Part shown: in pieces, positions 55,755 to 58,787 of the stretch | Position numbering within the stretch: position 1 is the stretch's first letter | How the letters are laid out: the number at the start of each line of letters is the position of its first letter | Source of the DNA: Rhodoferax potami | Lineage (GTDB): Bacteria > Pseudomonadota > Gammaproteobacteria > Burkholderiales > Burkholderiaceae_C | DNA: 64,000 nt | NCBI RefSeq assembly: GCF_032193805.1 | Contig: NZ_JAVBIK010000001.1 | Coordinates: 2,439,001-2,503,000, forward strand | Direction: 5' to 3' | Notes under the pieces: generated by a model | Database searches by the model: none | The model's input: the letters and a program-made list of their open reading frames with translations, nothing else | What the model was told of the DNA's origin: nothing | Translations under genes and position numbers: made by a program

Positions 55755-56984
55755 ATGGCAAAAGAATATAAAGATCTCGTCGTCGGCCTCGATATCGGCA
55801 CGGCCAAAGTTATGGCGGTGGTGGCCGAGGTCATGCCTGGAGGCGAGCTCAAACTCGCCGGCTTCGGTGTGGCACCCACCAATGGGCTCAAGCGCGGTGT
55901 TGTGGTCAATATCGATGCGACGGTGGCCAGCATTCAGCAAGCGCTCAAAGAAGCCGAGCTGATGGCCGACTGCAAGATCACCCGTGTGTACACCGGCATC
56001 ACCGGCAGCCATATCCGTGGCATTAACAGCAGCGGCATGGTGGCGGTGAAAGACCGAGAAGTCACCCAAGCCGACGTCGCCCGTGTGGTCGAAACCGCCA
56101 AGGCCATCAACATCTCGACCGACCAGCGCTTGCTGCTGGTGGAGCCGCAAGAGTTCATCATCGATGGCCAGGATGTGCGTGAGCCCATCGGCATGAGCGG
56201 CATCCGCTTGGAGGCCAAAGTGCACATCGTGACCGGTGCGCAGAGCGCGGCAGAAAACATCATCAAATGCGTGCGCCGCTGCGGCCTGGAGGTCGAGCAG
56301 CTGATGCTCAACCCGCTGGCCAGCAGCCTGTCGGTGCTCACCGAAGACGAGCGCGAACTCGGTGTCGCACTGGTAGACATTGGTGCTGGTACCACCGATG
56401 TCGCCATCTTCACCAACGGCGCCATACGCCATACCGCCGTGATCCCGATTGCCGGTGACCTGATCACCAGCGACATTGCCATGGCCCTGCGCACACCCAC
56501 CAAAGATGCTGAAGACATTAAGGTCGAGTCGGGCCACGCCAAGCAGTTGTTGGTGGACCCTGAAACCCAGGTCGAGGTGCCGGGTCTGGGCGATCGCGGC
56601 CCGCGCATGTTGAGCCGTCAGGCACTGGCGGGCGTGATCGAGCCGCGGGTCGAGGAAATTTTTACTCTGGTAAATCAGGTGATGCGCGAGTCCGGCTACG
56701 AGGAAGTGCTCTCCAGTGGCATCGTGCTCACCGGCGGCAGTTGCATCATGCCGGGCATGGTGGAGCTGGGTGAAGACATCTTCCTCAAGCCGGTGCGAAG
56801 GGGCATCCCCAAATACAACAGCGCTTTGGCCGACATGGTGGCGCAGCCCCGTGCGGCCACGGTGATGGGCCTGCTCGAAGAGGCCCGCATTGCCCGCCTT
56901 CGGGGTTACAAGGTTGCCCAGAAGTCCGGCACGATGAAGTCAGCCTTCAGTTCTGTGAAGGACTGGTTTGTGGGGAACTTGTAA
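55755..56984 (+). CDS. ftsA: Cell division protein FtsA
   Basis: An actin-like ATPase (409 residues) that tethers FtsZ to the membrane. Phosphate-1 motif DLVVGLDIGTAKVMAVVAE, phosphate-2 LVDIGAGTTDVAIF, adenosine motif VLTGGSCIMPGMVELG and a C-terminal amphipathic helix (SAFSSVKDWFVGNL) are present. It has its own ribosome site (GGAGCAGG). Unlike the usual arrangement, the next gene is not ftsZ but an FlhD-family gene. Confidence 0.96.
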   Translation: MAKEYKDLVVGLDIGTAKVMAVVAEVMPGGELKLAGFGVAPTNGLKRGVVVNIDATVASIQQALKEAELMADCKITRVYTGITGSHIRGINSSGMVAVKDREVTQADVARVVETAKAINISTDQRLLLVEPQEFIIDGQDVREPIGMSGIRLEAKVHIVTGAQSAAENIIKCVRRCGLEVEQLMLNPLASSLSVLTEDERELGVALVDIGAGTTDVAIFTNGAIRHTAVIPIAGDLITSDIAMALRTPTKDAEDIKVESGHAKQLLVDPETQVEVPGLGDRGPRMLSRQALAGVIEPRVEEIFTLVNQVMRESGYEEVLSSGIVLTGGSCIMPGMVELGEDIFLKPVRRGIPKYNSALADMVAQPRAATVMGLLEEARIARLRGYKVAQKSGTMKSAFSSVKDWFVGNL

Positions 56985-57164
56985 CCATGTCTACACCGGC
57001 CACCAACGTGTTTGTGGTTCACCAACTTCCCCGCCATTGCTGGGGGCTGGTTCGTGTGCTGGTCCATCGAGGGCAGGACCCGCCTTCGTAAAGCGCCACC
57101 GTGTTTGCACTCAGTCGTTGGAAAAAAATCGTCGAAAAATATTGAATCTCAGGAGATGACAAAT
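56985..57164. other. Spacer between ftsA and the flhD-like gene
   Basis: The first half is GC-rich, the second half (from about 57110) is AT-rich like the gene that follows. A weak pair TTGGAA (57118-57123) and TATTGA (57140-57145), 16 bases apart, might be a promoter. A 34-codon frame after ftsA has no supporting features. Confidence 0.35.
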
Positions 57165-57488
57165 ATGAAAGCCCAAATCAAGGCCGAAATTCGCGATGCA
57201 AATATGGCTTATTTGAATATGGCCCAGAGTTTTATCCAGAAGGACCTCCAGTCCGCTGTGAAAATACTGGGTATGTCGCAAGACGCTGCAGAAATTATCA
57301 AAACGTTGTCAGAAAGTCAGAAAACCAGCATTGCCGATAGCGACATTTTGTTGTGCCGCTTCGGTGTCAGCGATGACGTGGTGTGGAAGCTCCTCACCAG
57401 CCATCCGGCTCCCAAGCCGGAGGCCGAGCATGCCAAGCGCCTGCTCGCCGACATCTTGTTGGCAGGCCGTTTGGCCGTCGCTGCTTGA
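57165..57488 (+). CDS. FlhD-family transcriptional regulator, orphan, between ftsA and ftsZ
   Basis: A 107-residue protein with the FlhD pattern from start to end: EIRDANMAYLNMAQSFI at residues 8-24, then D-x-x-SA-x-x-x-LGMS, AEIIKTLSESQ, and SDILLCRFGV with the conserved Cys of FlhD, then LLT and a helical end (ADILLAGRL). E. coli FlhD (119 residues) has the same spacing (INLSYLLLAQ, RLGI, LVCHFRF). FlhD normally acts with FlhC to switch on flagellar genes, but no flhC is in the window. ATG at 57165 follows AGGAG by 9 bases; ATG at 57156 is too close to it. The gene is AT-richer than its neighbours. The family call is firm, the role here is unknown. Confidence 0.85.
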   Translation: MKAQIKAEIRDANMAYLNMAQSFIQKDLQSAVKILGMSQDAAEIIKTLSESQKTSIADSDILLCRFGVSDDVVWKLLTSHPAPKPEAEHAKRLLADILLAGRLAVAA

Positions 57489-57545: not shown

Positions 57546-58787
57546 ATGAGCATCGAAATGATCGAAGAAGAAGCCTTTAACCAAGGCACACAAATCAAAG
57601 TCATTGGCGTAGGCGGTGGCGGTGGCAATGCGGTGGAGCACATGATCTCGACATCGGTGGGAGGTGTGGAATTCATTTGCGCCAATACCGATGCTCAGGC
57701 GCTGAGCCGCAGCTCGGCCCACAAGACCATCCAGCTCGGCGGTACCGGCCTGGGTGCCGGAAGCAAGCCTGACAAAGGCCGTGAAGCGGCGGAACAGGCA
57801 GAGGCCGACATCCGCCAAGCCATCGAAGGCGCGCACATGTTGTTCATCACCGCCGGCATGGGCGGAGGCACCGGTACCGGCGCCGCACCCGTGATTGCCA
57901 AGGTTGCCAAAGAAATGGGCATTTTGACCGTGGGTGTGGTGACCAAGCCCTTCGATTTCGAAGGCGGTCGCCGCATGAGTAACGCCGACACCGGTCTGGC
58001 CGAGCTCGAAGCCAATGTGGATTCCCTGATCGTGGTGCTCAACGAGAAGTTGCTTGAAGTACTCGATGAAGATGTGTCACAGGATGAAGCCTTTGCACAC
58101 GCCAACGACGTGCTGAAGAACGCTGTGGGCGGCATTGCTGAAATCATCAATGTGAAGGGCGAGATCAACGCCGACTTCGAAGACGTGCGCACCGTGATGG
58201 GTGAGCCCGGCAAGGCCATGATGGGAACTGCCACCGCCAGCGGTCCCGATCGCGCCCGGATTGCCGCAGAACAAGCTGTGGCCTGCCCGCTCCTGGAGGG
58301 TGTCGACCTGTCAGGTGCCAAGGGCGTTCTCGTGCTGATTTCCGCCTGCAAGGGTTCATTGAAGCTCAAAGAATCCAAGATGGCGATGGAAACCATCCGC
58401 GCTTGCGCTTCCGCCGATGCTCACGTGATCTACGGCACCGCCAACGACGAAAAGTTGGGCGATGAAATCCGTGTGACCGTTATCGCCACTGGCTTGAGCC
58501 GTCAAGGCGCGCGCCGTACCGCTCCTCCGCTGCAAGTGCTGCGCACTGGTACCGATAACGTGCCTTTCCATGTGCCCACACTGAACACAGTGGCAAGCAC
58601 AGGAAGCGCAAGCCCCGCGATGGGCAGCGTGGGATCGTCGGTGAGCCAGCCTGACTACGGCAGCATGTCCACGCCCAGCGTGTGGCGTACGAACCGCACC
58701 CAAGCAGCGGCCAAGGTCGATGCGCTCTCGAGCGGCGGCATGGACGACTACGAAATCCCCGCGTTCTTGCGCAAGCAGGCGGATTGA
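57546..58787 (+). CDS. ftsZ: Cell division GTPase FtsZ
   Basis: The tubulin-like protein (413 residues) that forms the division ring. GVGGGGGNAVEHMI and the tubulin signature GGGTGTGAAP bind GTP; the T7 loop region NADFEDVRTVMG completes the site. A variable linker of about 60 residues leads to the C-terminal peptide DDYEIPAFLRKQ that binds FtsA and other partners. An AAGGAG site lies 8 bases before the ATG. The flhD-like gene ends 57 bases upstream. Confidence 0.98.
   Translation: MSIEMIEEEAFNQGTQIKVIGVGGGGGNAVEHMISTSVGGVEFICANTDAQALSRSSAHKTIQLGGTGLGAGSKPDKGREAAEQAEADIRQAIEGAHMLFITAGMGGGTGTGAAPVIAKVAKEMGILTVGVVTKPFDFEGGRRMSNADTGLAELEANVDSLIVVLNEKLLEVLDEDVSQDEAFAHANDVLKNAVGGIAEIINVKGEINADFEDVRTVMGEPGKAMMGTATASGPDRARIAAEQAVACPLLEGVDLSGAKGVLVLISACKGSLKLKESKMAMETIRACASADAHVIYGTANDEKLGDEIRVTVIATGLSRQGARRTAPPLQVLRTGTDNVPFHVPTLNTVASTGSASPAMGSVGSSVSQPDYGSMSTPSVWRTNRTQAAAKVDALSSGGMDDYEIPAFLRKQAD

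Follow-up and report, generated by a model that had tools for sequence, protein, structure and literature searches.

What is a gene of the FlhD family doing between ftsA and ftsZ? FlhD is one half of the FlhDC flagellar activator, and the question is raised by a 64-kb stretch of DNA, the window of this analysis (G000:C1:2439001-2503000), which belongs to a genome of 4.0 Mb in three contigs. An earlier, sequence-only reading, whose placement of the DNA in the Comamonadaceae was right, had proposed that the gene might link cell division with motility or control the supply of FtsZ. We will refer to the gene as flhD2 and to the genomes that harbor it as carriers. That its product belongs to the FlhD family and is under constraint is near certain, and FlhD2 probably has a new job tied to cell division or motility control.

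A divergent FlhD paralogue in the division cluster

All of the genes considered here lie on the + strand. Upstream is ftsA (55755..56984), a 409-aa open reading frame with coherent family matches, the product of which is 82-99% identical to the FtsA of other carriers. Downstream is ftsZ (57546..58787), a 413-aa frame that starts 57 nt past the flhD2 stop and keeps its own Shine-Dalgarno (SD) sequence, AAGGAG; the SD and start context (TTCAAGGAGTAACAAC ATG) is identical across carriers and nearly matched in several non-carriers. Between the two lies flhD2 (57165..57488), which encodes 107 aa. The ribosome site proposed earlier is present, as AGGAG (57151-57155) precedes the ATG by 9 nt, and since a second in-frame ATG at 57156 is missing from some carriers (ATAACAAATATG), 57165 is the likely start. 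The leader of the gene (57092..57164) contains a conserved block, GTTGGAA..AATCGTCGAA..AATATT, in an alignment of seven carriers. As had been observed, both flhD2 and its leader are richer in AT than the adjoining genes, with GC contents of 52.5% and 41% against 60% for ftsA and ftsZ; the sister clade shows this less strongly (56% GC).

Several simple accounts of this region were rejected. Rfam returned nothing at gathering score in the leader or the ftsA-ftsZ spacer, which disposes of a riboswitch or other known RNA, and a simple scan of the leader found no match to a canonical sigma-70 promoter that could drive flhD2. A phage or mobile-element origin was likewise discarded, since nothing matched among phages and no plasmid matched closely. 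As no + strand terminator was found upstream of flhD2, bar a weak match within ftsA, the gene probably shares a transcript with ftsA and ftsZ, in which case its level would follow division-gene expression.

The product scores 78.1 bits (E 6.6e-22) against the Pfam FlhD family PF05247, for which the cut-off is 27, and 67.4 bits against the stricter NCBIfam FlhD equivalog NF002783, for which the cut-off is 90. FlhD2 is therefore a member of the FlhD family, yet a divergent one. In a phmmer search of the PDB the significant matches were all FlhD chains (8j56, 5hxg, 1g8e). A structural model, predicted from eight carrier sequences with a mean pLDDT of 71 and a poor C-terminus, scored well in Foldseek with FlhD entries alone, its top ten PDB matches all containing FlhD (probability 1.00, best E 4.9e-4), and superimposed on several of them with an rmsd of 1.2-1.3 over 64-65 columns. 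FlhD2 is thus predicted to keep the FlhD fold, and the claim of an FlhD-family gene between ftsA and ftsZ is confirmed.

The same genome also contains a normal flhD (133 bits) with adjoining flhC (G000:C1:1440253-1441133), around one megabase from flhD2, and the two FlhDs are 50% identical. The genome has only this one copy of flhC, and none lies within the 64-kb window, as had been stated earlier. With a normal pair elsewhere and a single flhC, FlhD2 is an orphan paralogue of the normal protein, FlhD1, and stands outside the operon with flhC that is a trait of canonical flagellar FlhDs. A smaller contig holds a second FlhA/FHIPEP homologue (752 bits, G000:C3:192854-194839) with no FlhD of its own, which perhaps belongs to another export system, flagellar or type III.

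Well-resolved pairs of flhD2 genes within the genus give dN/dS ratios of 0.064-0.078 at dS 0.1-1.1, and the gene is therefore constrained, as had been supposed. A strain-specific or decaying gene can be dismissed, given these ratios and the 11 genomes that have an orthologue in this position. Neither of the two grounds on which the earlier reading was to be withdrawn applies, these having been the lack of a significant FlhD match and a single-strain gene with dN/dS near one. FlhD2 sequences are monophyletic (UFBoot 100), with a long stem (0.61) that arises within the Comamonadaceae FlhDs.

The sequence-only reading had also stated that the FlhD pattern is kept, including a conserved cysteine. 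This holds for the cysteine, Cys64 (equivalent to E. coli Cys65), which is retained in 8/8 FlhD2 proteins, and fails for other key residues. Eight distinct FlhD2 sequences were compared with 69 distinct normal FlhDs, in E. coli numbering. R35, R68, and H91 are each found in 69/69 normal FlhDs and are replaced in all FlhD2 by I/L, G, and L, respectively; position 34 is F/Y in 69/69 and K/E in all FlhD2. N61, present in 60/69, becomes D/E throughout, and the position of E. coli N102, which is E in 68/69 normal FlhDs, becomes V/M. The equivalents of D28 and L36 are kept, whereas L19, L51, and V55 correspond to N, E, and T/A. Campos and Matsumura (2001) reportedly assigned D28, F34, R35, and N61 to the surface that binds FlhC and counted H91 with the residues on the DNA side. 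Because residues that are invariant in normal FlhDs have changed, ordinary activation of the FlhDC type by FlhD2 is unlikely. L19, L51, and V55 belong to the surface that FlhD presents to YdiV, and the helices concerned also form the inner contact between FlhD subunits (D2-D3) in FlhD4C2 (PMC3510510).

Distribution and history of flhD2

Within the genus, flhD2 is found between ftsA and ftsZ in 7/103 genomes (G000, G104, G001, G101, G060, G044, and G059), at 88-100% identity. It occupies the same position, at 68-71% identity, in four Hylemonella-like genomes: metagenome-assembled genomes (MAGs) from a scan of a genome collection, and a fourth genome (G566) from a search of relatives. Named records with the gene include Comamonadaceae bacterium OS-4 (99% identical) and MAGs such as one of a Rhodoferax sp. 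(88%). No further FlhD2 was detected in 401 family genomes, where everything else scored at most 116 bits with an FlhD2 profile; the protein encoded in the window scored 230. The gene is kept by a small freshwater Rhodoferax-like clade and one other Comamonadaceae lineage.

In a tree of ftsA-ftsZ all carriers of the genus fall into a single clade (support 100), within which G007, G034, and G053 are without flhD2, and the Hylemonella-like carriers lie far off, next to a different genus. G007 is the sister of the carrier G059; their flanks are mostly 91-99% identical and their spacers cannot be aligned, and so either flhD2 was lost in G007 by replacement of the spacer, or it moved among relatives by homologous exchange. 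Consistent with such exchange, G000 and G104 differ in flhD2 by 1 synonymous change, as against around 12 predicted from ftsA (Poisson ~1.5e-4).

FlhD1 accompanies FlhD2 in 7/7 genus carriers and is absent from about half of the genus, although this co-occurrence is confounded by shared ancestry. Two Hylemonella-like assemblies with flhD2, G539 and G540, are without flhD1, flhC, and flhA, and both are small and possibly incomplete. Replacement of FlhD1 by FlhD2 was considered for G566, in which the contig stops around 2 kb beyond flhA, short of the expected flhDC site. The flhC of a further Hylemonella-like carrier (L265, G541:C169:1448-1946) is split across two reading frames, by either a frameshift or an assembly error.

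The ftsA-ftsZ spacer and its micro-ORF

Spacers with flhD2 are exceptionally long, at 561-564 bp in the genus carriers and 525 bp in those of the Hylemonella-like lineage, compared with 26-404 bp (median 156) for 89 spacers of the family and 117-229 bp for 43 spacers of the genus without the gene. The window's spacer also harbors a 34-aa micro-ORF, MSTPATNVFVVHQLPRHCWGLVRVLVHRGQDPPS (56987..57091, +), which begins 2 nt past the ftsA stop. The earlier reading missed it, and we regard it as the more revealing of the two features in this spacer.

This micro-ORF is the carrier version of one found across the family. An ATG lies within around 13 nt of the ftsA stop in 115/128 spacers without flhD2. 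A set of peptide motifs occurs in the corresponding frame in 93 spacers, against 3 and 4 in the other two frames and a mean of 1.6 (maximum 6) after shuffling, a count that is descriptive, the set having been built from the observed peptides and chosen after viewing them. More persuasive is the use of synonymous codons: the peptide WLARGSP, itself one that was picked post hoc, is encoded at 35 loci by 30 DNA spellings, and so the peptide appears to be conserved in its own right. The micro-ORFs (in spacers L063-L092, L138-L186, and L189-L248) often read WLARGSP...RWR.xGPPS or LWLARAGPP.

The core R[AG][SGP]P is present in 73/142 spacers, as RGSP (48), RAGP (17), RASP (7), or RGGP (1), and in 56 of the 73 one of the four preceding residues is a Trp. 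Of these motifs, RAGP and RGSP have been proven to arrest ribosomes, and RASP belongs to the SecM cluster (PMC10987492). The family-wide micro-ORF, although not the window's own version, thus often has a SecM-type core, a Trp followed by R[AG][SG]P in a short frame upstream of another gene, as in the SecM of E. coli (RAGP) and Mannheimia (RGSP). In contrast to SecM, it is very short (often 14-30 aa), precedes ftsZ rather than secA, and carries no export signal that we could see; any stalling is putative. Neither Pfam nor NCBIfam has a family for the peptide. One possibility is that the micro-ORF serves ftsZ as a nascent-peptide leader. A leader that works by occluding the SD was not supported, as the ftsZ SD is unpaired at 0.45 in the natural context and 0.46 with a shuffled leader.

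The core is absent from 10/10 flhD2-bearing spacers examined, the micro-ORFs of which share CWG..V..VH.G.DPP-like residues. It follows that flhD2 comes with a replaced or changed spacer cassette. In the carrier G059 (L069) a stop codon has taken the place of the micro-ORF's conserved Trp (CW to C-stop), which suggests that genomes with flhD2 depend less on the peptide. A bolder proposal, to which we would give little weight, is that the Comamonadaceae control ftsZ by a SecM-like leader after ftsA, and that the flhD2 clade has exchanged this leader for a cassette with a repurposed FlhD, which either ties motility to the expression of division genes or governs the output of ftsZ itself.

Possible roles of FlhD2

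The reading that we tentatively favor is that flhD2 arose by duplication of flhD, diverged in function, and became established between ftsA and ftsZ, where it is co-expressed with its neighbors, and that its product acts as an FlhC-independent regulator at the protein level, most likely on FlhD1. With the IR-AN--YL--AQ and LLCRF core and Cys64 retained, FlhD2 would fold as an FlhD dimer, and it shares its Pfam family, helical fold, length, and dimer cysteine with the FlhD of FlhD4C2 (E. coli 1g8e/2avu; Cupriavidus necator 8j56). It differs from that protein in its altered residues, its location in the division cluster, and the lack of an adjoining flhC, and it would not be expected to make the contacts for FlhC or for the dimer-dimer ring of FlhD4C2. 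Given these missing contacts, and as the FlhD of E. coli shows no DNA binding by itself (PMC3510510), a protein-protein mode seems likeliest. FlhD2 may pair into mixed dimers with FlhD1 or bind another partner, and FlhD4C2 activity would then be lowered or tuned under strong division-gene expression. It would most likely be an antagonist or adaptor, the dose of which follows that expression. Anti-FlhD4C2 factors such as YdiV offer an analogy for the proposed outcome, as they lower FlhD4C2 activity through contact with FlhD, although YdiV is an EAL-like protein and no homologue of FlhD.

The main rival, which we consider unlikely, is that FlhD2 has taken over from the ancestral micro-ORF leader, acts on FtsA, FtsZ, or ftsZ expression itself, and is unconnected with flagella. 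It would account for the fixed position of flhD2 in two separate lineages and for a SecM-like core that is frequent in flhD2-less spacers and missing beside flhD2; G007, so close to the carriers, has an RGGP-type micro-ORF in its different spacer. The two small Hylemonella-like assemblies with flhD2 and no flagellar regulator point the same way, but these MAGs may be incomplete. The only link to division, moreover, is the location of the gene, and this applies equally to the division-motility role suggested at the outset. The E. coli precedent that had been invoked for that role does not help: PMC4183435, citing Siegele 2010, describes the claimed effect of FlhD on cell division as directly refuted.

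Less probable still is that FlhD2 joins the single FlhC in a second FlhD4C2 whose choice of promoters is altered. Its family membership, the availability of one flhC in trans, and the retained D28, L36, and Cys65 equivalents would allow this, but the R35, R68, H91, F34, and N61 equivalents are altered in all FlhD2, as are the dimer-dimer contact surfaces, and the NCBIfam score is below the equivalog cut-off. That flhD2 is a passenger, inserted fortuitously into a permissive spacer and tolerated since ftsZ is undisturbed, would suit its patchy distribution (absent from G007, G034, and G053 within the carrier clade) and AT-richness, but is disfavored by the selection test, with dN/dS ~0.07 over dS near 1 between subclades and 68-71% identity retained across genera, and we regard it as very improbable.

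Our literature search found no publication on flhD with ftsZ in the Comamonadaceae, and the papers searched contained no report of nascent-peptide control in a division operon of this family; the main text of two arrest-peptide surveys, including PMC10987492, does not mention ftsA or ftsZ. A constrained FlhD without the FlhC-type signature, lodged between ftsA and ftsZ, provides a natural and genetically clean test of division-motility coupling, the claim for which, via FlhD, failed in E. coli. The conserved micro-ORF is possibly of greater interest than flhD2 itself, as it hints that a large bacterial family may regulate its division operon through a nascent peptide.
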